Assembly (NCBI GenBank): GCA_913043905.1
Contig: CAJWNQ010000002.1
Coordinates: forward strand, 1-64,000
Source: an uncultured Paracoccaceae bacterium
GTDB lineage: Bacteria > Pseudomonadota > Alphaproteobacteria > Rhodobacterales > Rhodobacteraceae
DNA length: 64,000 nt
Direction: 5' to 3'
The notes under the pieces are model-generated. The model was given only the letters and a program-made list of their open reading frames with translations. It was not told the origin of the DNA and searched no databases. The translations under genes were made by a program, and so were the position numbers. The number at the start of each line of letters is the position of its first letter. Position 1 is the first letter of the stretch. Of the stretch, positions 48,002 through 64,000 are shown piece by piece.

Positions 48002-50248
48002 ATGGCTAATATAATTAACGAACAAAATGATGAACCTATTGGCGGTGCTACACTGTCTGAACCATTGCGGCGCGCTATTGGTGATCGGTATCTAACTTAT
48101 GCGCTATCTACAATAATGCACCGAGCATTGCCTGATGCGCGCGATGGATTAAAGCCTGTGCATCGCCGAATTTTGTATGCAATGTATCGATTAAAATTAG
48201 TTTCTAATGGAAAATTTTTAAAATCTGCAAAAATTTCTGGTGACACTATGGGAGATTTCCACCCACATGGTGATGCCGCAATCTACGATGCGATGGCAAG
48301 ATTGGCACAAGATTTCTCTGTGAGATATCCAATGGTTGATGGCCAAGGTAATTTTGGAAACATTGATGGGGATAACCCTGCTGCGGCGCGTTACACTGAA
48401 GCCCGGATGACAGCTGTTGCTGAGGCTATGCTAATTGGTATGGAAGAGGATGCCGTTGATTTTAGGGATAACTATGATGGACGCTTAACGGAACCTTCTG
48501 TGTTGCCTGCTAGTTTCCCAAATCTATTGGCAAATGGTTCAACAGGAATTGCTGTAGGTATGGCAACAAATATTCCACCACATAATATTGGTGAACTTCT
48601 TGATGCTTCTATCCACTTGATTAAAGCGCCAAATGCACGAGATGAAACTTTAATGGATTACGTGCCTGGGCCAGACTTTCCCACTGGTGGTATTTTAGTT
48701 GAACCAAGAGAAAACCTATTAGAAGCCTATAAAACAGGACGAGGTCCTATGCGACTACGTGCGCGCTGGGAACTAGAAGAACTACCTCGAGGTCTTTGGC
48801 AAATTGTTGTAACGGAGATACCGTACCAAGTACAAAAGTCAAAATTAATTGAAAAAATTGCTGAATTAATTCAATTAAAAAAATTACCAATATTAACTGA
48901 TGTTCGTGATGAAAGTGCTGAAGATATTCGATTGGTTTTAGAGCCACGTGCAAAAACTGTTGATCCAATTATTTTGATGGAAACATTGTTTCGAATGTCA
49001 GATTTGGAAACTCGGTTTAATTTAAATTTGAACACTTTGATTGATGGGCGCACACCTAAAGTCTGTTCGATGAAAGAAGTATTAAGAGCTTTCATTGATC
49101 ACAAACGTGATGTGTTGTTAAGACGATCTAAGCATCGAATGGAAAAAATTGATCGCAGACTAGAAGTCTTAGAAGGCTATATTGTTGCCTTTTTAAATCT
49201 TGATCGCGTAATTGAGATTATCCGTAATGATGACGAACCAAAGCAGACTATGATGACAGAATTTAGTTTGTCAGATGCTCAAGTTGAAGCAATTTTGAAT
49301 ATGCGTTTGCGAAGTTTACGTAAACTTGAAGAGATCGAATTACGAACAGAACTTGATGCATTGCAAGTAGAACGTGCTAATCTTGAGGATCTTTTAAGTT
49401 CTGAAGAAATGCAATGGGATAAAATTATTGATGAATTGCGCGAAACACGGAAAAAATTTGGTAAAAATAGTAAACATGGCGCTCGCCGCACTGAGTTAGC
49501 AGATGCACCAGAATTTGAAGAAGTCCCAATTGAGGCAATGATTGAAAAAGAACCTATCACGGTTGTATGTTCTGCAATGGGATGGGTGCGGGCCATGAAA
49601 GGCCACGTGGATCTAGGCCAAGAGCTGAAATATAAAGATGGAGACCAAGGTCGTTTTGTTTTTCATGCTGAAACAACTGATAAGCTTTTAATGTTTGGTG
49701 GTAATGGACGGTTTTACACGATGTCTTGCTCTGACCTTCCAGGTGGGCGTGGCATGGGCGAACCAATCCGATTGATGGTAGACCTACCAAATGATGCAGC
49801 GATGATTGATTTTTTTATTCATAAGGCAGAGCGAAAACTCTTAGTTGCTTCAAATGCTGGAGATGGTTTTATAGTTAGTGAAACTGACGTCGTTGCGCAA
49901 ACGCGCACTGGTAAACAAGTGCTGAATGTCAAAGGTGATATCAAAGCTTTAATATGTAAACCTATTGCTGGAAATCATGTTGCTACGGTTGGGGAAAATC
50001 GTAAAGTATTAATTTTTCCATTAATTGAATTACCAGAAATGAGCCGAGGTAAAGGCGTTCGGCTCCAAAAATATAAAGATGGTGGGCTAAATGATGCAAC
50101 AACTTTCCATTTGGAAGATGGCTTATCATGGTTAGATCCAGCTGGAAGGCGTCGTATTGAAACTGAATTAATAGATTGGGTTGGCAAGCGAGCTGGAACA
50201 GGGCGAATGGCACCTCGTGGTTTCCCAAGAGATAATACGTTTACTTGA
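48002..50248 (+). CDS. parC: DNA topoisomerase IV subunit A
   Basis: ParC is the DNA-cleaving subunit of topoisomerase IV, which decatenates replicated chromosomes. The 748-residue protein has the winged-helix/tower part RDGLKPVHRRILYAM, GDTMGDFHPHGDAAIYDAM in the quinolone region, and AARYTEARMT with the catalytic tyrosine. The C-terminal half carries beta-pinwheel-like repeats. The base run before the ATG (CATCCTCC) lacks a Shine-Dalgarno, so initiation may be leaderless or from a non-obvious site. The ParC rather than GyrA call rests on length and C-terminal pattern. Confidence 0.93.
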   Translation: MANIINEQNDEPIGGATLSEPLRRAIGDRYLTYALSTIMHRALPDARDGLKPVHRRILYAMYRLKLVSNGKFLKSAKISGDTMGDFHPHGDAAIYDAMARLAQDFSVRYPMVDGQGNFGNIDGDNPAAARYTEARMTAVAEAMLIGMEEDAVDFRDNYDGRLTEPSVLPASFPNLLANGSTGIAVGMATNIPPHNIGELLDASIHLIKAPNARDETLMDYVPGPDFPTGGILVEPRENLLEAYKTGRGPMRLRARWELEELPRGLWQIVVTEIPYQVQKSKLIEKIAELIQLKKLPILTDVRDESAEDIRLVLEPRAKTVDPIILMETLFRMSDLETRFNLNLNTLIDGRTPKVCSMKEVLRAFIDHKRDVLLRRSKHRMEKIDRRLEVLEGYIVAFLNLDRVIEIIRNDDEPKQTMMTEFSLSDAQVEAILNMRLRSLRKLEEIELRTELDALQVERANLEDLLSSEEMQWDKIIDELRETRKKFGKNSKHGARRTELADAPEFEEVPIEAMIEKEPITVVCSAMGWVRAMKGHVDLGQELKYKDGDQGRFVFHAETTDKLLMFGGNGRFYTMSCSDLPGGRGMGEPIRLMVDLPNDAAMIDFFIHKAERKLLVASNAGDGFIVSETDVVAQTRTGKQVLNVKGDIKALICKPIAGNHVATVGENRKVLIFPLIELPEMSRGKGVRLQKYKDGGLNDATTFHLEDGLSWLDPAGRRRIETELIDWVGKRAGTGRMAPRGFPRDNTFT

Positions 50249-50398
50249 TTAGGCGTATGATTTTTTAAATATGTATAGTCTATTTTCGTAATAAAACTTG
50301 TAAAATCTAGTTATTTTAGTACCTCTAATAAATGAAATTTCATTAGTATTTGGTTAAATTTAAATTTTTAAAAAAAGCATTTGTTTTATAGCAAAGGC

Positions 50399-50427
50399 TT
50401 GCATCTGTGCCAAATTCCTTTTAATTG
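50399..50427 (+). promoter_or_regulatory. Probable tRNA-Trp promoter
   Basis: TTGCAT (50399-50404), a 17-base spacer and TAATTG (50422-50427), ending 16 bases before the tRNA, fit a sigma-70 promoter dedicated to the tRNA. Confidence 0.45.
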
Positions 50428-50443
50428 TGCATTACTTTGGTAT

Positions 50444-50519
50444 AGGGGTTTAGCTCAGTTGGTAGAGCATCGGTCTCCAAAACCGAGGGTCGTGGGTTCG
50501 AGTCCCTCAGCCCCTGCCA
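50444..50519 (+). tRNA. tRNA-Trp (CCA anticodon)
   Basis: A 76-base cloverleaf with encoded 3' CCA. The acceptor arms AGGGGTT and AGCCCCT pair, the D stem is GCTC/GAGC, the anticodon stem is TCGGT/ACCGA with loop CTCCAAA (anticodon CCA at 50477-50479), and the T loop is TTCGAGT. The T stem GTGGG/CCCTC contains one T-T mismatch at positions 50-64. It stands alone between parC and rmuC rather than beside secE. Confidence 0.96.
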
Positions 50520-50758
50520 AAGTCATTACACAAAATTGATATATTATGAGTTATTGATGCTATCAGCGACAATGTAAGAAGATGTTTGTGTAAAAAAATC
50601 CTATGATTTTACATGATTAATTTATTTTCTTTATTGGGTTGTTAATTTTTATGCCGAAGTGCCAAACCATCAATCGATGGTTTCAAAAAACTATAAATAT
50701 AGCTAACCTAATGTTTATAGCTAATAGTTTAATCAAATTTACTAAGGAATAATTAAGA

Positions 50759-52192
50759 ATGAGCCATGTGTTAGAAAATCTACCTTGGATTGGGTTTGCG
50801 ATGCTTTCCTTATTAATTCTATTTTTGAATCGAAAAAAAGCAGATGGTTCTTTAGTTCCTAATGGTCAAACTAAAACTTTAGAAAACAAAATTCTTGAAT
50901 TTGAAGTTAAAATACTGGCTGTAGGTTCGGCTGCCTCAAAATTTGAGGCATTAGCTGAAGAACGAAAGACTGAAATAAGCAGATTAAACGAAGACCTTTC
51001 AAAGTTACGCAATAAACTGGAATATGAAAATGAACAGAAAACTAGTCTATCAAACAAAATATCAGAGTTAAATGCACAAAGTTTAGCAGAAAAAAAGTCT
51101 TCTGAAGAAAAAATTCAAATTTTGTCACAGCTGCGTGATGATATGGAATCTAAATTCAAAGAACTTGCAACAGAAGCTTTGAAGGTTCAGGGTGAAAGCT
51201 TTTCTAAGGCAAATATTGAAAAGTTAGAAGCTACGCTAACTCCCCTAAAAGAGCATGTCGGGCATTTTGAAAAAGAATTGCGCCAGGTCAATGAGCAAAC
51301 TATTAAAGATAGAGAGCATTTGAAGGCTGAAATAAGCCAACTATCAAAACAATCTGAAAAAATATCTCATGATGCAATAGCACTGACGAAAGCATTAAAG
51401 GGAGATACCCAGATGCAAGGTGCTTGGGGTGAAATGATTTTAGAGAGCATTCTCGAAAAATCAGGTTTACGTAAAGGCGAAGAGTATGAAACTCAAGTTA
51501 ATAGAACAGGCTTGGATGGTGAACGATTACGGCCTGACGTGGTAGTCAATTTACCTGGCGGCAAAACATTAGTTATTGATAGTAAAGTTTCTTTGGTTGC
51601 TTACACAGATGCGGTAAATGCAGAAAATGATTTTGATGCTATAGCAGCAAGGAAAAGGCATATAGTATCTCTTAGAAATCATATTAATGGATTATCTGCT
51701 AAGGGGTATCAATTGGCAGAAAGTTCCTCAGTTGATTATGTAATTCTTTTTGTCCCTATTGAGGGTGCATTGTCAGAAGCTTTACGTGAAGATGGTAAAA
51801 TAACTGAATTCGCTTTGGAGAAAAATATTACGATAGCGACACCAACGACACTGATGATGGCACTAAAAACTATTTCTAATGTTTGGGACGTTGAACGCCG
51901 AAATAAAAATGCTGAGTTAATAGCAAGCCGTGCTGGAAAACTTTATGATAAGGTAAGTGGTTTTGTGCAAAATATGGAAAAAGTTGGAGAAAAGTTAACT
52001 CAAGCACAAGATTCATATGATGTAGCATTTGGTCAACTTTCAAAAGGACGTGGTAATGTCTTATCTCAAGTTGAAAATTTGAAAACACTTGGTGCTAAAA
52101 CATCAAAGTCCATTGACGCAGACTATGACGTATCTAGCAATTTTGATGATGAGCTTATTGAAAGTAAAAAAGCTACAAAAGATAGTAATTAA
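50759..52192 (+). CDS. rmuC: DNA recombination protein RmuC
   Basis: RmuC limits inversions at short inverted repeats in E. coli and contains a PD-(D/E)XK-like nuclease domain. The 477-residue protein has an N-terminal membrane segment (about residues 8-24), a long coiled coil (about 40-210), and the nuclease domain with MQGAWGEMILESILEKSGLRKGEEYETQ, GERLRPDVVVNLPGGKTLVIDSKVSLVAY and YVILFVPIEGAL. It follows the tRNA after 239 bases of AT-rich sequence. Confidence 0.93.
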   Translation: MSHVLENLPWIGFAMLSLLILFLNRKKADGSLVPNGQTKTLENKILEFEVKILAVGSAASKFEALAEERKTEISRLNEDLSKLRNKLEYENEQKTSLSNKISELNAQSLAEKKSSEEKIQILSQLRDDMESKFKELATEALKVQGESFSKANIEKLEATLTPLKEHVGHFEKELRQVNEQTIKDREHLKAEISQLSKQSEKISHDAIALTKALKGDTQMQGAWGEMILESILEKSGLRKGEEYETQVNRTGLDGERLRPDVVVNLPGGKTLVIDSKVSLVAYTDAVNAENDFDAIAARKRHIVSLRNHINGLSAKGYQLAESSSVDYVILFVPIEGALSEALREDGKITEFALEKNITIATPTTLMMALKTISNVWDVERRNKNAELIASRAGKLYDKVSGFVQNMEKVGEKLTQAQDSYDVAFGQLSKGRGNVLSQVENLKTLGAKTSKSIDADYDVSSNFDDELIESKKATKDSN

Positions 52193-52204
52193 ATATATTT
52201 AGTT

Positions 52205-52549
52205 TTAATTAGAATCCACAATAAATATATCGTATGCTTTGAGAGCTTTAGCGCTAAATGCGTAAGATGGTCCGCCACCCATATAAGTAGCCATTTCTAA
52301 TGCTTCACAAAGTTCTTCACGTCTAATGCCTAAGCGAACTAACGATCGAACATGAAAGCCAATACAGCTGTCACAGCGTGTTGCTACGGCAATTCCAAGA
52401 GCTATAAGTTCTTTTGTTTTTTCACTGAGTGCACCATCTGATTTGGCAGTTTGTCCCATTAGTCCAAAACCTTTGGCTGTCTGGGGGATTTCTTTTGAAA
52501 ATAAAGCTAAATTCTCTTCAGTTTCGTGCATAAATTTTTTCCAATCCAT
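52205..52549 (-). CDS. AhpD-like carboxymuconolactone decarboxylase family protein
   Basis: A 114-residue all-helical protein with the AhpD/CMD redox motif CDSC-x3-H (C59, C62, H66), typical of peroxidase-associated disulfide proteins. The start is set at MDWKKFM because AAGGA lies 7 bases upstream; an in-frame ATG 24 bases earlier would overlap the permease gene. It is last in the minus-strand run ATPase-permease-AhpD-like. A role in thiol or peroxide handling is plausible, but the substrate is unknown. Confidence 0.83.
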   Translation of the reverse strand: MDWKKFMHETEENLALFSKEIPQTAKGFGLMGQTAKSDGALSEKTKELIALGIAVATRCDSCIGFHVRSLVRLGIRREELCEALEMATYMGGGPSYAFSAKALKAYDIFIVDSN

Positions 52550-52559
52550 ACTTGTATCC

Positions 52560-53318
52560 TTATTGTCGTTCATCTGATCCCATGTGGCGTTCCAGCCAAC
52601 GTACGCCTGCGCTTATTATTAATACAAGTACTAGGTATTCCAGTATAAGAAGTGAATAGAGCTCCAGCGGCCTATACTCGGTAACTACAAGTTCGTTTGC
52701 ACGTCGTGTTAATTCTTGCATTCCAATTACAGATGCAAAAGCGCTCATTTTAACTATGTAAATGAATTGATTGGCAAGTGGTGGCAGAATACGGCGTATA
52801 GCTTGTGGTAAAATTACATACCGCATGGACTGGGCATAACTTAGTCCTATAGTTTGTGAAGCTTCAGCTTGACCTCTAGCAATAGATTGAATGCCTGATC
52901 GGTAAATTTCTGCAGTAAATGCACTATCCGAAATGGCTAAAGTTATAACTGCACCCCAAAATGGATCGATAGGAATATTAAGACCCATTGATTTGAAAAT
53001 AATTGGTAAACCATAAAAAACCCAGAATAACATTGGTAGTAATGGTATTGATCTAATTAGTTCCACATAAACTCTGTTAACAATGCGCCAGACCCGCTTG
53101 GATGATTGCCCAGGTAAAGCAACAACTAGCCCTAGTGTTATTGAAATAACTGCAGCAGTTACTGAAATAAGTATCGTATTTCCCATTCCGGATACTAAAA
53201 ATTTTATGTTTATCCATCCTGAAGGTGTGTTCGGGTTAATAACATACCAACCCCAAATATCGGAAGTACAACTGCAAAGTCCAAGCAATGCAAAAAGTGA
53301 AAGGCAGAGTTTTTTCAT
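52560..53318 (-). CDS. Polar amino-acid-type ABC transporter permease with lipobox-like N-terminus
   Basis: A 252-residue HisMQ/GlnP-type permease. After a short N-terminal hydrophobic segment come about five spans; the EAA loop is EIYRSGIQSIARGQAEASQTIGL and the segment LPQAIRRILPPLANQFIYIVK is standard. The N-terminus reads LFALLGLCSC, resembling a lipoprotein signal (L-G-L-C), unusual for a permease. It is preceded 7 bases away by its ATPase gene. Only one permease gene is present, so it probably forms a homodimer. Confidence 0.88.
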   Translation of the reverse strand: MKKLCLSLFALLGLCSCTSDIWGWYVINPNTPSGWINIKFLVSGMGNTILISVTAAVISITLGLVVALPGQSSKRVWRIVNRVYVELIRSIPLLPMLFWVFYGLPIIFKSMGLNIPIDPFWGAVITLAISDSAFTAEIYRSGIQSIARGQAEASQTIGLSYAQSMRYVILPQAIRRILPPLANQFIYIVKMSAFASVIGMQELTRRANELVVTEYRPLELYSLLILEYLVLVLIISAGVRWLERHMGSDERQ

Positions 53319-53325
53319 ATTCTTA

Positions 53326-54066
53326 TTAATGCTTTAAAATTTGGTTTAAAAATGTTTGGCAGCGCTGGGTCTTTGGGGAATTAAAAAAGTTTTCAGTTAA
53401 AGCTTGTTCAACTATTTGGCCTTGGTCCATGAATAAGACTTTATCGGCAACTTTACGTGCAAAGCCCATTTCATGAGTAACAACTACCATAGTCATCCCA
53501 TCATTTGCCAGTTCTACCATTACATCTAAAACTTCAGAAATCATTTCTGGATCAAGTGCTGAGGTAGGTTCATCAAATAGCATTACCTTAGGTTCCATGC
53601 ATAGAGACCGAGCTATTGCAACCCGTTGCTGTTGGCCGCCAGAAAGTTGTGAAGGCATTTTTTGTGCCTGATCCGTAATTCGAACACGCTCTAGATAGTG
53701 TAGAGCAATCTCAACAGCTTTTTGGCGGCTCTGTCTTTGAGCTTTCATTGGGCCTAAAATAAGGTTTTCCATGACAGTGAGGTGTGGAAAAAGATTGAAC
53801 TGCTGAAACACCATTCCTATGTCACCTTGAATTGATGCTACAGATTTAGAGTTATTTGTTAATTCTTTTCCATCTAATAAAATAGTGCCACTTTGGTGTT
53901 TTTCTAATTTATTAATGCAACGAACAACTGTTGATTTTCCTGAACCTGACGGCCCACAAATTACAACCTTTTCACCTTTGTTTACTGTCAGGTTAATATT
54001 TTTAAGAGCATGAAAATCATCAAACCATTTATTCAAGTTTTTTAGCTCTATAGCGGTATTGGGCAT
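53326..54066 (-). CDS. Polar amino-acid-type ABC transporter ATP-binding protein
   Basis: A 246-residue ATPase of the GlnQ/HisP group with Walker [10 protein letters not shown] (38-46), LSGGQQQR, Walker [14 protein letters not shown] and [11 protein letters not shown]. First gene of the minus-strand unit, divergent from the binding-protein gene that starts 106 bases away. Confidence 0.92.
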
Positions 54067-54171
54067 CTTTTACCTGAAGGTTTGTATTTACTTGTTTAAC
54101 ATCCGAGCTACTTTAAATAAATCATAAGTTCAAGCACAAGCAAGAGCATAATTTCCAAACAGGAGAAGAAG

Positions 54172-54942
54172 ATGAATAAGTTTTTCAAAACAGCTGCTAT
54201 TGCAGTACTAGGGCTAACACTGTCAGGTGCGGCAAATGCGCAATCTGCCTTAAATGAAATTTTAAGTTCAGGTGTGTTGAAGGTGGGAACAACGGGTGAT
54301 TGGAACCCAATGACAGTACGTGACCCTGCAACTAATACTTATAAAGGTTTTGATATAGATATCATGACTGAACTTGCATCAGACCTTGGAGTAGAGCTTG
54401 AGTTTGTGCCGACAGATTGGAAGACATTGGTAAACGGTGTTGTGGCTGGCCAGTACCATGTCACTGGATCAGCATCGATTTCACCAGCAAGAATGAAGGC
54501 TGCAGGTTTTTCAGAAAGCTATATTTCAGTTGAGATTGTTCCATTTACTGGTAAAGAAAATGCTGGAAAATTTGATGGTCACGATTCAATTAATCAACCG
54601 GGTGTAAAAATTGCAACAACACTTGGAACAACCTTTGAAAAGTTAGTGCGGGCATGGTATCCCAAAGCTGACATAAAAGTAGTAGAAGCACCAGCGCGAG
54701 GCTACCAAGAAGTTTTATCTGGCCGAGCTGATGTGTTTATTACATCAAATATTGAAGGGTCAACCCTTGAAGAAAAATTTGGCGTTGTTCGTGTGAAAGG
54801 TGCTGAAGCACGCTCCCCAACACCGATTGCAATGATTTTACCTCAAACTGATCAAGTTTGGATTAACTATGTTAATAATTGGGTAAAAGTTAAAAAGGCC
54901 AAAGGATTTTTTGAAAAAAATAAGGCTAAATGGGGTCTATAA
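54172..54942 (+). CDS. Family-3 periplasmic substrate-binding protein
   Basis: A 256-residue secreted binding protein. The signal peptide is MNKFFKTAAIAVLGLTLSGAANA, cleaved after ANA. The mature part has the SBP_bac_3 layout: LKVGTTGDWNPMTVRDPATNTYKGFDIDI, DWKTLVNGVVAGQYHV and GYQEVLSGRADVFI. The pattern resembles PheC/cyclohexadienyl-dehydratase-like binding proteins. It is divergent from its likely permease and ATPase partners. The ligand could be an amino acid or another small zwitterion; this cannot be told from sequence. Shine-Dalgarno AGGAGAAGA. Confidence 0.9.
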   Translation: MNKFFKTAAIAVLGLTLSGAANAQSALNEILSSGVLKVGTTGDWNPMTVRDPATNTYKGFDIDIMTELASDLGVELEFVPTDWKTLVNGVVAGQYHVTGSASISPARMKAAGFSESYISVEIVPFTGKENAGKFDGHDSINQPGVKIATTLGTTFEKLVRAWYPKADIKVVEAPARGYQEVLSGRADVFITSNIEGSTLEEKFGVVRVKGAEARSPTPIAMILPQTDQVWINYVNNWVKVKKAKGFFEKNKAKWGL

Positions 54943-54945
54943 ATC

Positions 54946-54982
54946 TATTAATGGCAGGAGTATAATTCTCCTGCCATTAATA
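54946..54982 (+). terminator. Perfect hairpin between the convergent binding-protein and oxidoreductase genes
   Basis: A 15-bp perfect stem TATTAATGGCAGGAG/CTCCTGCCATTAATA with a TATAATT loop follows the binding-protein stop by 3 bases. Because the neighbours converge and the stem is symmetrical, it could terminate both. The U-run on the plus side is broken (TTGTTAAAAAATTTTT). Confidence 0.65.
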
Positions 54983-55015
54983 TTGTTAAAAAATTTTTAT
55001 AGATTTTAAATTTAA

Positions 55016-57061
55016 TTAAAGATCTTTTACCAATCTTAATGCATCATAAATTGCTGCATGAGTATTGCGTGCAGACACTGCATCACCAATACGAAACAAT
55101 TGAAATATCCCGTTACAGTTTCGTATTAAGGTTTGGGGCGTACCATTAATTAATGCATCATAATCAACCGCACCGTAATTTTTACTAAGTGGTTTTAACT
55201 CGAAGTATAAATCATCAAGTGGCATTGTCCCATAGTTTATCACTATTTGATCATAGCTTTGTTGCTGTGAGAAATTACTATAATCAGTTCCAATAGTTGC
55301 CATTAGTTTATTCCCAGCACGCTTCACATCTAGTAGGCGGCGTGTAACTGTAAATGTGACATCCTTGTCTTGAAGTGAGCGCATATAGGGCACTAAATTC
55401 ATTGCCATTATCTCGGGTGAAAAAGTACGATCTGGCGTCATAATTTCTACTTTTGCACCTGCATTTGCTGCAATCTCTGCTGCTTGAAGAGCTGGATGAT
55501 CACCACTTTCATCATAAATTAATATATTATCGGCAGGTTTTACATCGCCTGCAATAATATCCCAAGCAGTGACAACATGATCAGTATCGTTACTACTTTC
55601 AAATAATTCAGTGTTTGGCATGCCACCTGTAGCAACGATTACTATGTCTGGATTTAATGCTGATATATTACTTATTTCACCCCAAGTATTAAAATGAAAC
55701 TCTACATCGCGGGCTGCACATTGGGACATACGCCAATCAATAATAGAAATCATCTCTCGCCTGCGTGGGCTTTGGGCAGCTAGGCGAATTTGTCCCCCAG
55801 GGTCAGGCTGGGCTTCAAATACGATTACTTTATGACCTCGTTCAGCCGCTACACGTGCTGCTTCTAAACCTGCGGGGCCAGCGCCTATTATTACAATCTT
55901 ACGTAATATTGGTGCAGTCAAAATTTCGTGGGGCATAGTTAATTCACGACCTGTAGCTGGGTTGTGAATACACAAAGCATCACCAGCTTGGTAGATGCGG
56001 TCAAGACAATATGTAGCTCCAACACATGGGCGAATATCACTTTCACGGCCTTCAATAATCTTTTTAACTATATGGGGATCAGCCATATGAGCACGGGTCA
56101 TTCCAACCATATCTAGAAGCCCATTTTCAATTGCATGCCGTGCGGTTGCTACATCTGGAATTCTAGATGCGTGAAAGGTTGGCATCCCTGTAACTTTTCT
56201 AACTTCGCCAGCAAAGTCTAAGTGTGGTGCGCTTGGCATTCCTTGAACTGGTATTAAGTCGGTCATAGCTGGATCTGTATGTATGCGACCTCTATTTACA
56301 TTAAGAAAATCTAATTGTCCTGATGCCGCTAATATTTTGGATATCTCAAGGCCATCTTTAGCAGAGATACCTCCTTTTTGCATTTCATCTGCAGTATAGC
56401 GAAATCCAATTATAAATCTATTTCCAACTCGTTTACGAATTGCCCCTAATACATCCATTGGAAATAGCATGCGGTTTTCTAATGTATCTGCACCGTATGG
56501 CCCAACAAGATCGTTTGTTAGTGGTGACCAAAATTGATCCATTAAATGGCCACTTACTTGTAATTCAATACCATCCATACCCCCGGCCTTCATGCGTTCA
56601 GCTGCATCAGCGAAGTCACTGATGATGCGTTCAATATCCCAATCTTCGATTAATTTAGGAAACGCTCTGTGCGCGGGTTCACGGTGTTTTGACGATGAAA
56701 CTGAAGGTAACCAGTCGTGCTTATTCCAGTTTGTTCGTCTCCCTAAGTGAGTAAGTTGTATCATGACAGCGCATCCATGTTCATGACATCCATCAGTGAG
56801 GTTCTGAATCCACGGAACTACTTCATCTTTATAGGCTAAAACGTTATTGAATACAGGTGGGCTATCTTTAGAAACAGCAGCGGAACCTGCCGTCATGGCG
56901 AGGGCAATTCCAGCTTTAGCTCTTTCTTCGTGATAGGCTCTATAGCGCTCTTTAGGCATGCCATCTTCTGGATAAGCAGGTTCATGACTTGTTGTCATAA
57001 TGCGATTTTTTAAAGTTAGATGTTTTAGCTGGTAAGGCTGGAGTAGTGGATCACTGGACAT
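55016..57061 (-). CDS. NADH:flavin oxidoreductase/NAD(P)-reductase fusion (OYE-TMADH-like)
   Basis: A 681-residue protein of the 2,4-dienoyl-CoA reductase/trimethylamine dehydrogenase class, which includes dimethylglycine and N-methylproline demethylases. It has an N-terminal FMN-binding TIM barrel (about 5-335) with MTTSHEPAYPEDGMPKERYRAYHEERAKAG, an Fe-S linker (about 345-365), and a C-terminal FAD/NAD domain with GAGPAG (393-398). The Fe-S region shows only three cysteines, C346, C352 and C364, where the family normally has four. The chosen ATG is 57061; an in-frame GTG lies 6 bases upstream and no strong Shine-Dalgarno is seen. It lies 267 bases downstream of dmdA on the same strand. A methylated amine or sulfonium substrate is possible; the true substrate is unknown. 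Confidence 0.82.
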   Translation of the reverse strand: MSSDPLLQPYQLKHLTLKNRIMTTSHEPAYPEDGMPKERYRAYHEERAKAGIALAMTAGSAAVSKDSPPVFNNVLAYKDEVVPWIQNLTDGCHEHGCAVMIQLTHLGRRTNWNKHDWLPSVSSSKHREPAHRAFPKLIEDWDIERIISDFADAAERMKAGGMDGIELQVSGHLMDQFWSPLTNDLVGPYGADTLENRMLFPMDVLGAIRKRVGNRFIIGFRYTADEMQKGGISAKDGLEISKILAASGQLDFLNVNRGRIHTDPAMTDLIPVQGMPSAPHLDFAGEVRKVTGMPTFHASRIPDVATARHAIENGLLDMVGMTRAHMADPHIVKKIIEGRESDIRPCVGATYCLDRIYQAGDALCIHNPATGRELTMPHEILTAPILRKIVIIGAGPAGLEAARVAAERGHKVIVFEAQPDPGGQIRLAAQSPRRREMISIIDWRMSQCAARDVEFHFNTWGEISNISALNPDIVIVATGGMPNTELFESSNDTDHVVTAWDIIAGDVKPADNILIYDESGDHPALQAAEIAANAGAKVEIMTPDRTFSPEIMAMNLVPYMRSLQDKDVTFTVTRRLLDVKRAGNKLMATIGTDYSNFSQQQSYDQIVINYGTMPLDDLYFELKPLSKNYGAVDYDALINGTPQTLIRNCNGIFQLFRIGDAVSARNTHAAIYDALRLVKDL

Positions 57062-57067
57062 TTTCAC

Positions 57068-57328
57068 TAGCTTTTCTGCAAAATTGACTAATATATAAAA
57101 TAAAGCCTAAGCAAATTTTAGCATAAGTCTATTATGAAAACGGCAAGAATAATGTCGTTAACTTTAAAAAATAAATAATATTTGTGATAATTATTAATAG
57201 TTCTGGAATGTATTTTGCATTGGCTATTTCAAATAAATCTATTTGCATAATTTCATTGAGGTCATAATGCACCTAATAAGCTAATATCTTTACTTGATAT
57301 AATAAATTTTATTCATAAATAAACAAAA
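57068..57328 (-). other. Spacer between dmdA and the oxidoreductase gene
   Basis: These 261 bases are AT-rich with no ORF and no convincing terminator in the minus direction. It may carry a separate promoter for the oxidoreductase; I see no clear -35/-10 pair. Confidence 0.4.
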
Positions 57329-58474
57329 TTATGAGTAAAGCGCTTCATTAGCCTGAACTCGTTTCAAGAGTGTACCAACTTCACAAATTATTCCGTTACG
57401 AAAGCCTTGAGCAGACTCAACTATTACCTTGGCTCCATCGTGCGCGTGCTCAGCAGAAATCATAGTAAAACCAATGTTGCCAATATAATCAGGAGAGTAA
57501 ACTGCAGATGTTAGAGTGCCAACTTTCTGGCCGTCTACCATTACGGCTTCTGGCATTGCTACGGGTGTCATTTCCACACCGTCCATTTCAATTCCCATTA
57601 GACGTTTCTCTACGCCTGTATTTCGCTGATCAATTAAGGCTTGTTTACCAATAAAATTTGAATCACCATCTAGATTAATAAACTTTTCTAATCCAATTTC
57701 TAAAGGCGTATCTTCACGGTTCATGTCGTTGCCATATGACAGTAAACCACTTTCAATACGTTCGATTAGATTTGGGCAACCTGGACGAATATTATATTTT
57801 TCGCCTTTCTCCCAAATAGCATCCCATAGGTCACCACCAAGATTAGAATCATCTAAATAAATTTCAAAGCCACCTTGTTTGGAATATCCAGCACGAGCTA
57901 TGTTTAACATTCGGCCCTTAAATGGGAATGCCTTGAAGTGGAAAAATCTTATATTTCGAATGTCTTCTCCAAATACGTCGACCAATAGATCTTCTGACAT
58001 TGGGCCCTGTATTGCCAGTGGAGAAACATCAGGTTCACAAATATCAACATCTAGATCTAATCCCAATGAAATTCCCTGTACCCAGAGAAGAAGATCACTA
58101 TCAGCAATAGAAAACCAATATTTATCATTAGCCAAACGTAATGCAACAGGGTCATTAATCATTTTACCATTTTGGTCACAAACTGGTGCGTAATAAGAAC
58201 GTCCAACTTGGGCTTTACTTAAGTCGCGCGCTGAAATCATACATGCTAATTTGTGCGCATCAGGGCCCTCTATTTGAACTTGACGTTCAACGGCAACATC
58301 CCAGATCTGCACATATTTTTTTAAGTGACTATAGTCCTCACGAAGGCCTTCAAATGTTGTTGGCAATAGCATATGATTATAAACAGTAAAGCCAGAAACA
58401 CCTAAAGCAGTAACGCGTGAAGTGTAGGGTGTCGCTCGTAGGCGCCGCGACGGGAAAAGCATTGCACCAGACAT
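57329..58474 (-). CDS. dmdA: Dimethylsulfoniopropionate demethylase DmdA
   Basis: DmdA transfers a methyl group from DMSP to tetrahydrofolate, giving 3-methylmercaptopropionate, and belongs to the GcvT fold family. The 381-residue protein matches the DmdA pattern I remember from marine alphaproteobacteria through blocks spread along its length: TPYTSRV (residues 15-21), FTVYNHMLLP, the WDVAVERQVQI strand, RDLSK, YYAP, SIADSD, SKQGGFEIY, CPNLIERIESGLLSYGND and a C-terminal GcvT barrel part. A paralogous aminomethyltransferase or other GcvT relative is the main alternative, but the shared VYNHMLLP and IADSD blocks favour DmdA. Good Shine-Dalgarno GGGAGGATT. It is divergent from metY. Confidence 0.88.
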   Translation of the reverse strand: MSGAMLFPSRRLRATPYTSRVTALGVSGFTVYNHMLLPTTFEGLREDYSHLKKYVQIWDVAVERQVQIEGPDAHKLACMISARDLSKAQVGRSYYAPVCDQNGKMINDPVALRLANDKYWFSIADSDLLLWVQGISLGLDLDVDICEPDVSPLAIQGPMSEDLLVDVFGEDIRNIRFFHFKAFPFKGRMLNIARAGYSKQGGFEIYLDDSNLGGDLWDAIWEKGEKYNIRPGCPNLIERIESGLLSYGNDMNREDTPLEIGLEKFINLDGDSNFIGKQALIDQRNTGVEKRLMGIEMDGVEMTPVAMPEAVMVDGQKVGTLTSAVYSPDYIGNIGFTMISAEHAHDGAKVIVESAQGFRNGIICEVGTLLKRVQANEALYS

Positions 58475-58539
58475 TTATAATCCTCCCAATGTGATTAAAT
58501 CAATTTTATTTGCTTTGCGCTGGATTGAAGATTCGATCA

Positions 58540-58568
58540 ATTGTAACGTTAGGTCACTTCTAAAGCAA
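58540..58568 (-). promoter_or_regulatory. Possible dmdA promoter
   Basis: On the minus strand, TTGCTT (58568-58563) and TACAAT (58545-58540) are separated by exactly 17 bases, 65 bases upstream of the dmdA start. The -35 is weak and the -10 is good. The 167-base divergent region also serves metY. Confidence 0.4.
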
Positions 58569-58641
58569 AAATGTAGGGTCTCTTGACATAAGGCACTCTG
58601 AGTAGGCATGCGTGTTCAATAAGAATTAGTTGGAGAATAAT

Positions 58642-59931
58642 ATGACCGGTGATTATAAATTTAATACACTTAGTTTACATGCTGGATTTACGCCAGACGA
58701 GCGACATGGTTCTGCAGCTGTGCCTATTCATCAAACGACTTCTTATGTCTTTAAAGATACTGAACATGCTGCGGCATTATATAATCTTGAAGTTGGGGGG
58801 CATCTTTATTCACGGATTTCAAACCCAACAGTTGCAGTACTTGAACAACGTGTTGCTGCGCTAGATGGTGGCATTGGGGCGGTGGCTACTTCTTCGGGAA
58901 TGGCTGCGCTCTTTGTAACAGTTTTAGCATTGTGTTCTGCTGGTGATCACATTGTATCTTCATCACAAATGTATGGTGCAAATATAAACCTATTCCAGCA
59001 TACTTTGTCACGTTATGGAATTGAGACAACTTTTGTTGCTCCCAACGACCCAGATGCTTTTGCCGCTGCAATTCAGACAAATACAAAAATGGTATTTGGG
59101 GAAGTAATTGGTAATCCTGGACTTGATATTATGGACATAACGGTAATTGGAAAAATAGCTAATGACGCAGGTGTACCTCTAGTTATTGATGCAACATTTA
59201 ATACGCCATATCTTCTGAAGCCTCTTCAAAATGGTGCAAATATTGTGATACATTCTTTGACTAAATGGATGGGTGGCCACGGTATTGCGCTGGGAGGGAT
59301 TGTAGTGGATGGGGGGAATTTTGATTGGGGTCAAAATAAACGCTTTCCTACATTAACTGAATCACACTTTGGGTTCCAAGGAGTAAATTTATATGAAGAA
59401 TTTGGCCCAGCAGCCTTTATCACGCGCGTCCGCACTGAAGGAATGTATAATGTTGGTCCATGTTTATCCCCAACTAATGCGTTTCATTTGATTCAGGGTA
59501 TAGAAACTTTAGGTCTTCGTATGGAACGCCACATGTCAAACACTAAAAAGATGTTAGATTTTCTGTTGCAACACGAAGGTATTTCTTGGGTCAAGCACCC
59601 AACTTTACCTGATCATCCTGATTACGATGTTGCTAAACGGCTAATGCCTAAAGGTGCAGGTTCAGTAATAGCCTGTGGAGTAAAGGGTGGGCGTGAGGCT
59701 GGGCAGGCATTTATTGAAAATGTAAAAGTTGCTTCACATCTTGCTAATGTTGGTGATGCTAAGACCTTGGTTATTCATCCTGGATCCACAACTCAAAGTC
59801 ACTTAAGTCCAGAAGCAATGAAATTAGCTGGCTTAACTGATGATATGTTACGCATTTCAGTAGGACTAGAAGATTTCGAAGATTTGCAGGCAGATTTTGA
59901 ACAGGCACTGCGTTCTGCTGCTAAGATTTGA
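58642..59931 (+). CDS. metY: O-acetylhomoserine sulfhydrylase/aminocarboxypropyltransferase
   Basis: A 429-residue PLP enzyme of the Cys/Met metabolism family that joins O-acetylhomoserine with sulfide or methanethiol to give homocysteine or methionine. PLP lysine in HSLTKW is K208. Other motifs are NTLSLHAGFTPDE at the start, SRISNPTVAVLEQRVAALDGG, and the final HPGSTTQSHLSPEAM. ATG at 58642 is preferred with GGAG 7 bases upstream. Divergent from dmdA and first of a four-gene plus-strand run; with DMSP demethylation nearby, methanethiol is a natural second substrate, which is inference. Confidence 0.93.
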   Translation: MTGDYKFNTLSLHAGFTPDERHGSAAVPIHQTTSYVFKDTEHAAALYNLEVGGHLYSRISNPTVAVLEQRVAALDGGIGAVATSSGMAALFVTVLALCSAGDHIVSSSQMYGANINLFQHTLSRYGIETTFVAPNDPDAFAAAIQTNTKMVFGEVIGNPGLDIMDITVIGKIANDAGVPLVIDATFNTPYLLKPLQNGANIVIHSLTKWMGGHGIALGGIVVDGGNFDWGQNKRFPTLTESHFGFQGVNLYEEFGPAAFITRVRTEGMYNVGPCLSPTNAFHLIQGIETLGLRMERHMSNTKKMLDFLLQHEGISWVKHPTLPDHPDYDVAKRLMPKGAGSVIACGVKGGREAGQAFIENVKVASHLANVGDAKTLVIHPGSTTQSHLSPEAMKLAGLTDDMLRISVGLEDFEDLQADFEQALRSAAKI

Positions 59932-59940
59932 GGATAAAAT

Positions 59941-60738
59941 ATGAAAATTAATTTGAATGGGGAAATAGTTTTTGCATCTACGGGGGGGCGAAATTTTGAA
60001 CTAAAAGGTAAACCTATTTGGTTCATACATGGTTCTGGCCAAAGTCACTTATCTTTTATGTTACAGGGAAGATTTTTTGCAAATCGAGGCTGGTCAGTAA
60101 TTGCTGCAGATATGCCATCGCATGGGTTATCTAGTGGAATACCTTTAGATACTATTGAAGCGATGTCAGATTGGCATATAGCATTAATGGATTCACTTGG
60201 CGTAGAAAAAGTACAGATTGTTGGGCATTCTCAAGGTGGCTTGATTGGTTTGGATTTGGCACATCGATATGCAGACCGTGTCTCACGCCTATCATTGGTT
60301 GCAACAGCACTCTCAATTCCTGTTAATGATAACTTGATTGATATGGCCAAAAATAAAGAACCAGTTGCAATTAAAGCTATGATGGATTGGGGGCATGGTT
60401 CTGAAGGGCATAGCCACGATCATACTATGCCAGGTCAAAACCATCTCAATTACGGTGTGCAGATGATGACTGCAAATAAATCGGGTGCGTTACACGCTGA
60501 CCTTCAGGCTTGTGTGGATTATGTTAATGGCCCGAGTGCTGCGGCTATGATTACTTGCCCAACGCAGCTTATCCTGGGCCAAAAAGATAAAATGACTCCA
60601 CTAAAATTTGGGCTTAAGTCTGCAGAAGCTTTAAAGACTGTTAATGTTACCATTGTTGAAAATGCTGGCCATATGTTGCCTTCAGAACACCCAGAAGAAG
60701 TTAACCGCGCTCTGCGCCCCTTTTTTACTAAGAGTTAA
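59941..60738 (+). CDS. Alpha/beta-hydrolase fold protein
   Basis: A 265-residue alpha/beta hydrolase. The nucleophile elbow is GHSQGG with Ser97, the oxyanion region IWFIHGSGQSHLSFM is typical, and the acid and histidine lie in GQKDKMTP and ENAGHMLPSEHP, giving an intact Ser-Asp-His triad. The insert HGSEGHSHDHTMPGQNH is histidine-rich and unusual for the fold. It is 9 bases after metY and 3 bases before the next gene, so it is cotranscribed. The substrate is unknown; a thioester, carbon-carbon bond or other ester is possible. Confidence 0.85.
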   Translation: MKINLNGEIVFASTGGRNFELKGKPIWFIHGSGQSHLSFMLQGRFFANRGWSVIAADMPSHGLSSGIPLDTIEAMSDWHIALMDSLGVEKVQIVGHSQGGLIGLDLAHRYADRVSRLSLVATALSIPVNDNLIDMAKNKEPVAIKAMMDWGHGSEGHSHDHTMPGQNHLNYGVQMMTANKSGALHADLQACVDYVNGPSAAAMITCPTQLILGQKDKMTPLKFGLKSAEALKTVNVTIVENAGHMLPSEHPEEVNRALRPFFTKS

Positions 60739-60741
60739 ATT

Positions 60742-63075
60742 ATGATAAAATTCAAACGTATTGCCGTTATTGGTGCAGGTACAATGGGAAGTGGCATAGC
60801 TGCTCAAATTGCAAATGCAGGTCACAAAGTCTTATTGATGGACTTGCCTCGTGACGATGATCCACTTGGCGTATTAAAAGCTGCAAAAGAACGCCTCTTA
60901 AAATCAGACCCGCCAGCATTAGTGCATAAATCACGCATTGACCTTATTGAGATTGGCAATATCCGCGATGATTTTGATAGATTAGCGGATTATGATTGGA
61001 TCGTTGAAGCTGTTGTGGAACGATTGGATATTAAAAAGGATCTATATAAACGTCTTAACGAAGTTATAGATACTGAGTGTGTGGTCACATCAAACACGTC
61101 AACAATTCCAATTTCTTTGTTGGTAGAAGACATGCCTATGAAATTTCGCAAACGGTTTGCGATTACACATTACTTTAATCCAGTACGCTACATGCGCTTG
61201 TTAGAGCTCGTCCGTGGTACTGATACTGACGAGGCTATTATGGATAGCTTGGCTGAGTTTAACGATACAATAATGGGAAAAGGTGTTGTTCGATGCAATG
61301 ACACGCCAGGATTTCTTGGTAATAGAGTGGGTGTTTTTGCTCTACAAGTAGGGATGGATGAAGCAGCTAAAAATAATCTAACAGTTGAAGAGGCCGACGC
61401 GCTAATGGGTAGGCCAATGGGTATTCCAAAAACAGGTGTATTTGGATTATACGATTTGATTGGTGTTGATTTGATGTCAGATGTTGTTGATACATTAGGA
61501 GATATCTTGCCTGCTGAAGATTTATTTCATGCTGTTGGGACATTAAATAACCCTGTTATGCCTCTGATACGTGATATGATTTTAAATGGGTTTACAGGCG
61601 ATAAAGGTAAAGGGGGCTTCTACCGTTTAAATGAAGATGTTGCATATGCAGTTGATCTAATGACTGGTCAAATGCGTTTGCGCAAAACTTTGCTACCAAA
61701 AATCGCCCAACACGCCGCCAGTGCGCAAGCTGCAGGTGAGGAAACTTTAACTATCATGATTGATGGAGTAAATAACCACAATGTGTTTTGTCGCCGGTTC
61801 CTTGCTCGTGTTCTGGCTTATGCTGCGGATTTGATTCCAACAGTTACAACTAGCCCTCAAGACATTGATGATGCCATGAAGCTTGGTTTTAACTGGGTGC
61901 GTGGACCGTTTGAATTGATTGACGCTCTGGGCGCTGATGTGGTTGCAACTTTAATCCAAGAGGCGGGATTAGATATGCCAATGTCGATTAATGTTAGCCG
62001 TGAATCAGGTCCATTTTATTCAGTGAATAATGAAACTCTGAATGTCTTAAACTTCCAGCATGACCCAATTTATGCACCAGTAGTTTTGCCAAAAAACACA
62101 ATTCGTTTTCACATGACTAAACGAACAATGGAACCTATTATAAGTAATGCTGCTGCCAGTTTGTATGAACTTGAAGGTGATTTACGGTTGTTAGAGTTTC
62201 ACTCGAAAGCAAACGCTTTAACGGGAGCGTCTATGGAAATAGTGGCAGCAGCTGCTCAAAATCATGGTAAGGGTATAATCGTTCATAATGATGCGCAGCA
62301 TTTCTCTGCGGGAGTTGATCTTAACCGTTTCCGCGCATTTATTGAAGCGGAGGACTGGACTGGAATTGATGCTTTTTTAAATGACTTTCAGCAAGCAGTA
62401 AAAGCTCTCAAATACACACCAGTACCTGTAATTGGAGCGCCATCTGGACTATCTATAGGTGGTGGTTTTGAGGTTCTCGCTCATTGTGATAAACTGGTTG
62501 CACATACGAATACAGTTTTTGGACTGGTTGAAACGGGTGTCGGTGTTGTTCCAGGTGGTGGAGGTGTTAAGGAAACATTATGGCGCTGGTTTCAAGCAAC
62601 TGGTGATTGGGAGAAAGCATCATGGAACACATGGATGCAAATTGGATATGGCCAAATAGGCACAAGCCCAGATTTATCTTCTCGTATGCAATATTATTTA
62701 AAAGACCGAGATATTGAAGTTCTGAATCGTGATAAATTAATGCATGTAGCTATTGTTGAAATTGCAAAATTACAAAAAAAATATATGCCGCCTACTATAC
62801 CGATATTTGAGCTTCCTGGCCGTGCAATTTTATCTAAAATGTCAAACTTTATGCAAAAAGGTATTGATGATGGATTATTCTATCCCCATGATAAAATAGT
62901 AGCGATGCAAGTGGCTGAAATCGTAGTAAATAGTATAAGTGATAATAGTCTGACTGTTTCTGAGCAAGATATGTATGACCGTGAACGCCGTGCATTTCTT
63001 GTTTTGGCAAAAACACCACAAACTATTGTGCGGATATCCAGTCTGTTGGACACTGGTGAAGCTATTAGAAATTAG
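60742..63075 (+). CDS. FadN-type bifunctional 3-hydroxyacyl-CoA dehydrogenase/enoyl-CoA hydratase
   Basis: A 777-residue multifunctional beta-oxidation protein. The N-terminal half is 3-hydroxyacyl-CoA dehydrogenase with the NAD loop GAGTMGSG (11-18) and catalytic pair H143 and E155 (12 apart, as in the family). The C-terminal part is a crotonase-fold hydratase with oxyanion segments HFSAGVDL and GLSIGGGFE, and both catalytic acids E577 and E597, 20 apart as in crotonase. This order (dehydrogenase first) is that of FadN (YusL) and the reverse of FadB. It lies in the operon metY-hydrolase-FadN-acyl-CoA ligase, which suggests degradation of an acyl-CoA made by the next gene. Confidence 0.9.
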   Translation: MIKFKRIAVIGAGTMGSGIAAQIANAGHKVLLMDLPRDDDPLGVLKAAKERLLKSDPPALVHKSRIDLIEIGNIRDDFDRLADYDWIVEAVVERLDIKKDLYKRLNEVIDTECVVTSNTSTIPISLLVEDMPMKFRKRFAITHYFNPVRYMRLLELVRGTDTDEAIMDSLAEFNDTIMGKGVVRCNDTPGFLGNRVGVFALQVGMDEAAKNNLTVEEADALMGRPMGIPKTGVFGLYDLIGVDLMSDVVDTLGDILPAEDLFHAVGTLNNPVMPLIRDMILNGFTGDKGKGGFYRLNEDVAYAVDLMTGQMRLRKTLLPKIAQHAASAQAAGEETLTIMIDGVNNHNVFCRRFLARVLAYAADLIPTVTTSPQDIDDAMKLGFNWVRGPFELIDALGADVVATLIQEAGLDMPMSINVSRESGPFYSVNNETLNVLNFQHDPIYAPVVLPKNTIRFHMTKRTMEPIISNAAASLYELEGDLRLLEFHSKANALTGASMEIVAAAAQNHGKGIIVHNDAQHFSAGVDLNRFRAFIEAEDWTGIDAFLNDFQQAVKALKYTPVPVIGAPSGLSIGGGFEVLAHCDKLVAHTNTVFGLVETGVGVVPGGGGVKETLWRWFQATGDWEKASWNTWMQIGYGQIGTSPDLSSRMQYYLKDRDIEVLNRDKLMHVAIVEIAKLQKKYMPPTIPIFELPGRAILSKMSNFMQKGIDDGLFYPHDKIVAMQVAEIVVNSISDNSLTVSEQDMYDRERRAFLVLAKTPQTIVRISSLLDTGEAIRN

Positions 63076-63084
63076 GGGAATGTG

Positions 63085-64000
63085 ATGAGTATTTACGATG
63101 ATTTCGAAAAGACCACAGCAAACCACGTAGCGTTGTCACCACTTTCGTTTATAAAACGAACAGCGTTAATGTTTCCTGATCGTGATGCTATAATTTATGG
63201 CAATAGGTGTTATAGTTGGTCACAGCTTTATAGGCGTGCAAAACAACTAGCATCTGCACTTAATGCACATGGTATAGTAAAAGGTGATACGGTAGCTATC
63301 CTATCTGCTAATACTCCAGAAATGGTAGAAGCTCATTTTGGTATTCCCATGTCTGGTGCCGTCTTGAACACTATTAATACACGGTTGGATTCTGATACTA
63401 TTGGCTACATTCTTGATCATGGTGAAGCCAAAGTTTTTATAGTTGATGGCGAGCTTGCACCTCAAGCCGCAGTTGCAGTTGCTGAACGTAATATTTTAAT
63501 CATTGATATTGCAGACCTGCAGGATAACTTAAAACCCAATCGCATTGGGACCATCGATTATGCTGACTTTATTGCTACAGGAGATGCCAATGCAGATTGG
63601 GATATGCCATCTGATGAATGGGACGCAATTGCGCTAAACTATACATCAGGGTCCACTGGTAGGCCTAAGGGTGTGGTTTATCATCACCGTGGTGCATATC
63701 TAATGTCTATGGGAGTTATTGCGGACTGGGGCTTACCTAGACATCCAAAATATCTTTACACTGTGCCGATGTTCCATTGTAATGGATGGTGCCATGGCTG
63801 GGCTATGGCGGCATTAGCGGGAACAATAATTTGTACACGCACAGTCTCACCAAGTGTAGTTTATAATGCAATCTATAATCATGGGATTACGCATTTTGGT
63901 GGCGCGCCTATTGTATTAGGTATGATCCTGAATGCAAATGACAAAGACCGAAAGCCTTTTGATTACACTGTGAATGTTATGACTGCGGGCGCACCTCCAC
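63085..64000 (+). CDS. Acyl-CoA ligase, partial (DmdB candidate)
   Basis: An AMP-forming acyl-CoA synthetase cut by the right edge after about 305 residues. The N-terminus reads LSPLSFIKRTALMFPDRDAIIYG, and the ATP-binding loop is TSGSTGRPKG (187-196) with the family's later motifs outside the window. AGGGGA lies just before the ATG. It is 9 bases after the FadN-type gene. Its family includes DmdB, which activates methylmercaptopropionate to its CoA thioester, but fatty-acid ligases look similar, so the DmdB role is inferred only from the dmdA neighbourhood. Confidence 0.85.
   Translation, partial: MSIYDDFEKTTANHVALSPLSFIKRTALMFPDRDAIIYGNRCYSWSQLYRRAKQLASALNAHGIVKGDTVAILSANTPEMVEAHFGIPMSGAVLNTINTRLDSDTIGYILDHGEAKVFIVDGELAPQAAVAVAERNILIIDIADLQDNLKPNRIGTIDYADFIATGDANADWDMPSDEWDAIALNYTSGSTGRPKGVVYHHRGAYLMSMGVIADWGLPRHPKYLYTVPMFHCNGWCHGWAMAALAGTIICTRTVSPSVVYNAIYNHGITHFGGAPIVLGMILNANDKDRKPFDYTVNVMTAGAPP

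Follow-up and report, generated by a model that had tools for sequence, protein, structure and literature searches.

A candidate module for dimethylsulfoniopropionate demethylation and methanethiol assimilation beside dmdA in an uncultured Paracoccaceae bacterium

Demethylation of dimethylsulfoniopropionate (DMSP) sets the fate of algal sulfur, between biomass and the climate gas dimethylsulfide. In an uncultured Paracoccaceae genome (GCA_913043905.1; 2.02 Mb, 83 contigs, 92.65% complete), the DMSP demethylase gene dmdA lies on the minus strand, divergent from a plus-strand series of metY, an alpha/beta hydrolase (ABH) gene, a FadN-type gene and a CoA ligase gene that runs from 58630 to 64686 of contig C2 (CAJWNQ010000002.1). 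The window analysed here is the 64,000-nucleotide stretch C2:1-64000. Why should these genes stand together, and which of them might take the step of DmdD, for which no gene was found? We lean, with some reserve, towards reading the locus as a DMSP-demethylation and methanethiol-assimilation module in which FadN and ABH may replace DmdD. Judged from sequence, function is established as far as family membership: the genes belong to known families, and would form a known pathway in a new arrangement.

The locus and its proposed pathway

57329..58474, minus strand: dmdA, DMSP demethylase, 381 aa (NF009133, 3tfh)
58475..58629, no strand: divergent intergenic region between dmdA and metY, with a sequence block common to L035 and HTCC2255 only
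58630..59931, plus strand: metY, O-acetylhomoserine aminocarboxypropyltransferase (NF006004)
59941..60738, plus strand: ABH, alpha/beta hydrolase, 265 aa (Pfam; GHSQG nucleophile motif, Asp216, His244)
60742..63075, plus strand: FadN-type bifunctional 3-hydroxyacyl-CoA dehydrogenase/enoyl-CoA hydratase, 777 aa (Pfam HAD and crotonase domains)
60760..61626, plus strand: dehydrogenase part of FadN (Pfam 3HCDH_N and 3HCDH)
62257..62571, plus strand: hydratase (ECH) core of FadN (Pfam)
63082..64000, plus strand: PRK08162-family acyl-CoA ligase, first 306 codons (NF006020), a candidate ligase for methylmercaptopropionate (MMPA)

All five genes are open frames where the first-pass annotation had placed them, and the ligase gene continues past the window end to C2:64686 (534 aa; L003:3083-4687). 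DmdA passes NCBIfam model NF009133 (503 bits, cut-off 410) and has 3tfh as its top PDB sequence match (E 8e-109); MetY passes NF006004 (643 bits, cut-off 636), and the aligned starts of its relatives make the ATG at 58642 a likelier start than 58630. Because only 9 bp separate metY from ABH, 3 bp ABH from FadN and 6 bp FadN from the ligase gene, the four are likely to form one operon, as had been supposed for the ligase, the crotonase-containing enzyme and MetY.

The pathway would begin with DmdA, a clear member of its family whose predicted activity is the conversion of DMSP to MMPA. The PRK08162 ligase may then form MMPA-CoA, as its context elsewhere suggests, and a DmdC-like dehydrogenase encoded on contig C19 would convert this to methylthioacryloyl-CoA. 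The hydratase domain of FadN has its catalytic residues and could add water to this putative substrate. FadN and ABH together would release methanethiol and CoA, standing in for DmdD, for which no gene was found; this is the weakest step of the scheme. Finally MetY, whose enzyme family is clear, could take methanethiol as its thiol and join it to O-acetylhomoserine to yield methionine.

The DmdC gene had been expected just past the window, but that stretch is occupied by another cluster:

about C2:64.7-73.0 kb (L003:4726-12977), of which 64.7-72.0 kb is convergent to the ligase gene: carnitine/crotonobetaine degradation cluster, beginning 38 bp past the ligase gene

A PF02771 search over the genome gave two acyl-CoA dehydrogenases, one in this cluster and the DmdC-like protein on C19 (592 aa), whose neighbour reads like a taurine-type ABC transporter. 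The best PDB match of the C19 protein is 8pns and the third is 6ijc, which we take to be a DmdC. In the DmdC tree it groups with the module-side genes of genomes G454 and G351 (100/99), then with the gene of a dmdCD operon in G033, then with that of locus L265. No DmdD was found among the four crotonase loci of this 93%-complete genome, namely an echA8/AcuH-like gene on C15, one in the carnitine cluster, a 741-codon FadB-like frame on C29 and FadN itself; the DmdD of G033 matches only the C15 protein, at 32%.

The capture of sulfur through MetY, proposed in the first-pass annotation, fits the gene content of this genome. Neither a sulfite reductase (NIR_SIR domain; 11 of 14 control genomes positive) nor an SBP56 methanethiol oxidase (1 of 14 positive) was found, which is why we propose that sulfur is captured as methanethiol; since the genome is 93% complete, either gene may have been missed. 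In two Ruegeria species, 33% and 50% of methionine came from direct capture of methanethiol, according to the available part of PMC7157515. A cell lacking SBP56 or sulfite reductase might rely more on that route.

The FadN-type enzyme, the hydrolase and the ligase across genomes

The FadN-type enzyme scores below the cut-off of NF052272 (407 bits against 999). Both active sites are intact, with His143/Glu155 and Glu577/Glu597 invariant in all 22 aligned sequences. The FadN tree splits at 100/100 into 15 thiolase-linked FadNs with that of L113 on one side, and 10 module FadNs with six others, including SAR11, on the other. Within 2 kb, a thiolase gene is present in 15 of the 16 generic loci, in none of the six sister loci and in none of the ten module loci, so that the module lacks the adjacent thiolase that marks a fatty-acid fadN operon; an ABH gene lies upstream within 110 bp of FadN in all ten. 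The module thus resembles the fadA-fadN-fadE operon in its bifunctional enzyme with both active sites, but differs in having no thiolase nearby, an ABH gene directly upstream and a separate FadN clade. In the class, 5 of 289 genomes have a FadN at 57% or above, and all five have DmdA (38 of 289 overall); these five span three families and include our own genome, with relatedness left in.

The hydrolase, which the first-pass annotation had left without a role, proves to be a class-wide partner of MetY. It matches only general alpha/beta-hydrolase models in NCBIfam and Pfam, and its predicted structure has a pLDDT of 87. Comparison by fold ranks it equally with esterases, an enol-lactonase and chloroperoxidases, so that no substrate can be assigned by fold. 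Motifs common to 18 aligned ABHs, drawn from SAR11 and the module, are HGSG, (G)HSQG, D..AC..Y..G, Asp216 and GHM. A profile built from these 18 and run over the 289 class genomes gave a top group of nine (347-406 bits), all with DmdA, a middle group of 66 (206-296 bits), 18 with DmdA, and six further, weaker genomes. The association with DmdA has a Fisher value of 5e-9 with relatedness left in; this value and the score gap are partly built in, since seven of the nine top genomes (all but G272 and G499) supplied profile rows and had been picked via dmdA or FadN. MetY adjoins ABH on the same strand in all 20 loci fetched, hand-picked from the 75 genomes scoring above 200 bits, 18 of them from the group of 66. 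MetY-ABH is therefore an old, class-wide pair for which DMSP is one setting, and an initial view of the hydrolase as DMSP-specific was abandoned on this account.

The unrooted ABH tree (43 rows, SAR11 ABHs thinned to 12) is independent of the profile scores, while its sampling is not. It sets the MetY-only ABHs apart from those of the module, SAR11 and three other small genomes at 100/99. Because the module ABH clade (100/99) unites Rhodobacterales, the SAR116-like family and a third family, it suggests that the module ABH gene moved by transfer. Three of the 20 loci (L265-L267) carry, divergent from MetY-ABH, a stand-alone gene like the dehydrogenase part of FadN; L265 also has a DmdC-like gene, and its ABH carries GHSMG instead of GHSQG. 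Across the 18 loci from other alphaproteobacterial families (L265-L282), ABH follows MetY in every one. A third conserved neighbour of the pair was not found in these loci, among which ORF calling yielded antisense artefacts where GC content was high.

As to the first-pass suggestion that the ligase acts on MMPA, the protein fails NF005426, the NCBIfam model of 3-(methylthio)propionyl-CoA (MMPA-CoA) ligase (301 bits, cut-off 822), and passes NF006020, the PRK08162 model (822 bits, cut-off 677); 6ihk, which we take to be a DmdB, ranks fourth among its PDB sequence matches. Three of the seven AMP-binding genes in the genome (this ligase and those on C12 and C5) were scanned against NCBIfam, the other four being judged by eye. 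PRK08162 ligases adjoin dmdA in G033, G052, G351, G452, G434 and SAR11. The strongest indication that an MMPA-CoA ligase can belong to this family comes from operon placement: the order in G033 is dmdC-dmdD-ligase-dmdA, its DmdD matching 4izb (presumably the solved R. pomeroyi DmdD) at 4e-147, and in G052 a relative of that DmdD (75%) lies about 1 kb from the ligase gene. Separately, in G002 (L215:8183-12231) genes for OsmC, a crotonase and a PRK08162 ligase come after a DmdA-like gene (40%), a neighbourhood also seen in the SAR11 locus L040.

The synteny loci were hand-picked from longer lists. The whole layout, dmdA divergent from metY-ABH-FadN-ligase, occurs in our genome, L035, HTCC2255, G008 and G142. 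The nearest named relatives by DmdA are the uncultured Amylibacter metagenome-assembled genome of L035 (98%) and HTCC2255 (L036, 73%); we take the name NAC11-7 for the lineage from the available part of PMC10203303. Two genomes of one genus in another family (G359, G463) have dmdA divergent from metY-ABH-FadN with no ligase gene, and G126, G454 and G351 have metY-ABH-FadN with dmdA elsewhere. G454 and G351, both DmdA-positive and of one family, are probably SAR116; in both a DmdC-like gene (52-53%) adjoins metY-ABH-FadN. In G402 the order is FadN-ligase-metY-ABH. The proposed association of dmdA, metY and genes for CoA enzymes is thus borne out by five genomes with the layout kept, and in part by another family, the SAR116-like genomes and SAR11. 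As for the idea that the synteny recurs among marine Rhodobacterales, it does recur in these five and is not general. DmdA was detected in 168 of the 244 Rhodobacterales genomes (E<=1e-40), any FadN in 13 (E<=1e-60) and a module-type FadN (65-100%) in four, adjoining dmdA in three; in our own GTDB genus three of six genomes have the module FadN, G064 and G153 have dmdA without that FadN, and G184 lacks both. With 3 of 244 in the order and 3 of 6 in the genus, the module is confined to a small number of lineages. A dmdA-metY adjacency of another make stands in G270 (L144:9903-12305), where a dmdA (47%) and a metY of a different kind (45%) are convergent, 51 bp lying between the matched stretches; this adjacency arose separately.

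Among the Pelagibacterales, 89 of 117 genomes have a DmdA match (E<=1e-70). From these we hand-picked 37 loci, added one from the class survey and left out the six of these 38 with a best DmdA below 42%. In the 32 kept, the ligase gene is near dmdA in 25, a DmdC-like gene in 25, ABH in 22 and all three in 21; in six SAR11 loci the cluster is a different one, with a thiolase-like gene in their stead. PRK08162 is also the family of the L040 ligase (852 bits, cut-off 677). A grouping of dmdA, mhpC (an alpha/beta hydrolase), fadD and mmgC in SAR11 has been described, with no role given to the hydrolase in the part of that paper available (PMC3160333). Our locus resembles this region in having a PRK08162 ligase and ABH with dmdA, a DmdC-like gene completing the likeness; it is unlike it in gene order and strands, and in SAR11 the ABH gene lies away from metY and FadN is rarely near. 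A second type of SAR11 DmdA (49-51% to that of the window), followed by a thiolase gene, was seen at L194:3165-10608 and in L193, L198, L199, L217 and L230; in L194 it is also preceded by what we read as a thiamine-diphosphate-enzyme-like, an alpha-hydroxy-acid-oxidase-like and a second aminomethyltransferase-like gene. Perhaps this type acts on a substrate other than DMSP.

With the R. pomeroyi DmdA-DmdB-DmdC-DmdD/AcuH pathway our genome shares the DmdA family, and it can supply a DmdC-like dehydrogenase as well as a hydratase and a CoA ligase, but no DmdD was found, the ligase belongs to another NCBIfam family, and FadN, ABH and metY lie in the cluster. In the excerpted text of PMC3338564, acuI adjoins dmdA in all but 2 of 26 dmdA-bearing roseobacters, HTCC2255 being one exception and thus fitting a different locus type; ours is likewise a Rhodobacterales dmdA, but acuI is not 3' of it. 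The MetY-ABH pair of other Alphaproteobacteria has the same genes in the same order, but mostly no DMSP genes nearby and a separate ABH clade. Orthologs of dmdD are stated to be absent in SAR11 (PMC5069961) and in SAR116 (PMC8547437), where other enzymes may substitute; a later paper reports dmdD in a few SAR116 subclades and proposes acuH for the rest (PMC12262181), each as given in the portions available. The CC-licensed PMC literature, as far as its text was available, yielded nothing that connects dmdA with metY, an ABH gene and a FadN-type gene together. Our comparison adds named candidates, ABH and FadN, for the unsettled DmdD step and a named genome with the same operon, HTCC2255, and proposes methionine as the destination of sulfur in a Rhodobacterales cell with no detected sulfite reductase.

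Alternative explanations

Several observations weigh against a module that uses FadN and ABH for DMSP. PRK08162 is near-universal in Rhodobacterales (94 of 101 genomes, E<=1e-120), and the ligase tree, built from 15 of the 28 ligase loci in Rhodobacterales plus 10 ligases from SAR11, does not unite the dmdA-linked ligases, so that the idea of one clade was dropped. Most Rhodobacterales dmdA genes lie outside any such module, which half of our own genus lacks; FadN is near dmdA in just 1 of 32 SAR11 loci, and a SAR11 FadN of the thiolase-free clade (L103) stands among what we read as transporter and agmatinase-like genes, which calls for caution in regarding that whole clade as DMSP enzymes. 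Among the 66 genomes with an ordinary ABH, 48 have no DmdA, and 18 of the 20 MetY-ABH loci lie outside the marine group, mostly with no DMSP genes nearby. As this pairing spans the class, the role of ABH need not concern DMSP. In our genome, moreover, the DmdC-like gene is unlinked to the module and an AcuH-like crotonase is present on C15.

That crotonase is the basis of an alternative we consider possible but somewhat unlikely, in which it takes the DmdD step by a known route, while some other short acyl acid (acrylate, 3-hydroxypropionate or a short fatty acid) is the substrate of FadN and the ligase, which have nothing but their regulation in common with dmdA and metY. AcuH acts on methylthioacryloyl-CoA in the available text of PMC5395565, it has been proposed for SAR116 (the excerpt of PMC12262181 again), and a route like that of DmdD would leave the dehydrogenase domain of FadN superfluous. 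It would also leave unexplained the company that FadN and ABH keep with metY and dmdA in different families, and the absence of the thiolase; FadN with ABH is the favoured substitute for DmdD. An oxidative form of the replacement is a tentative scheme that we rate as quite unlikely. Here the hydratase of FadN would turn methylthioacryloyl-CoA into the hemithioacetal 3-hydroxy-3-methylthio-propionyl-CoA, its dehydrogenase with NAD would give the methylthioester of malonyl-CoA, and ABH, in the position of the thiolase in ordinary fadN operons, would split this into methanethiol, for MetY, and malonyl-CoA. A hint that the needed partner is the dehydrogenase comes from L265-L267, where its stand-alone gene lies beside MetY-ABH, in one case along with a DmdC-like gene. 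If true, the three carbons of DMSP would enter metabolism as malonyl-CoA rather than as acetaldehyde and CO2, and NADH would be gained.

It is decidedly unlikely, in our estimate, that MetY-ABH is here a general sulfur-assimilation pair, using sulfide or methanethiol of any source, with dmdA, FadN and the ligase gene as mere neighbours through streamlining or transfer. The pair is indeed class-wide and the genome small, but in SAR11 the ABH gene belongs to the dmdA operon and is apart from metY, several families have the module, and the separate origin of the adjacency in G270 also speaks for a link between DmdA and MetY. Service of FadN and the ligase to the neighbouring carnitine/crotonobetaine pathway seems highly improbable. 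The proximity of that convergent cluster, whose genes adjoin the module in L035 and HTCC2255 too, would favour it, but a CoA synthetase, a dehydrogenase and a hydratase are already encoded within the cluster itself, and the module loci L076, L077, L096 and L097 showed no carnitine gene.

Neighbouring features

The carnitine cluster encodes a crotonobetainyl-CoA-hydratase-like protein (334 bits, below the cut-off of 500) and a carnitine 3-dehydrogenase-thioesterase fusion (713 bits, cut-off 592); it also holds genes for an acyl-CoA dehydrogenase, a BKACE protein and an acyl-CoA synthetase of the ADP-forming type and, by our reading, for a short-chain dehydrogenase/reductase and a divergent GlxA-like regulator. 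A promoter motif shared across the loci was considered and rejected, as the intergenic block was found in the two nearest relatives only.

On the far side of dmdA, the first-pass annotation had begun the module at 55016, but the old yellow enzyme (OYE)/trimethylamine dehydrogenase (TMADH)-type flavoenzyme there (55016-57067, 683 aa) falls outside it: a relative adjoins dmdA in L035, and none was found in L036 (HTCC2255), L076, L077, L096 or L097. Of the NCBIfam models shown, the protein reaches the cut-off of none. By eye it matches three of what we take to be the four iron-sulfur cysteines of TMADH, and it is possibly a dimethylglycine or N-methylproline demethylase.

An Rfam scan of 50000-64000 (E<=1) gave no riboswitch before metY, nor did scans of 14 relatives' loci at the gathering threshold, which matched four tRNAs and one PYLIS_3. 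The latter, a pyrrolysine insertion sequence (mttB), lies near the module in a probable SAR116 genome (L098:15172-15271, minus strand, 71.7 bits). In the window itself, the scan placed a tRNA gene at 50444-50516 on the plus strand (68.6 bits).

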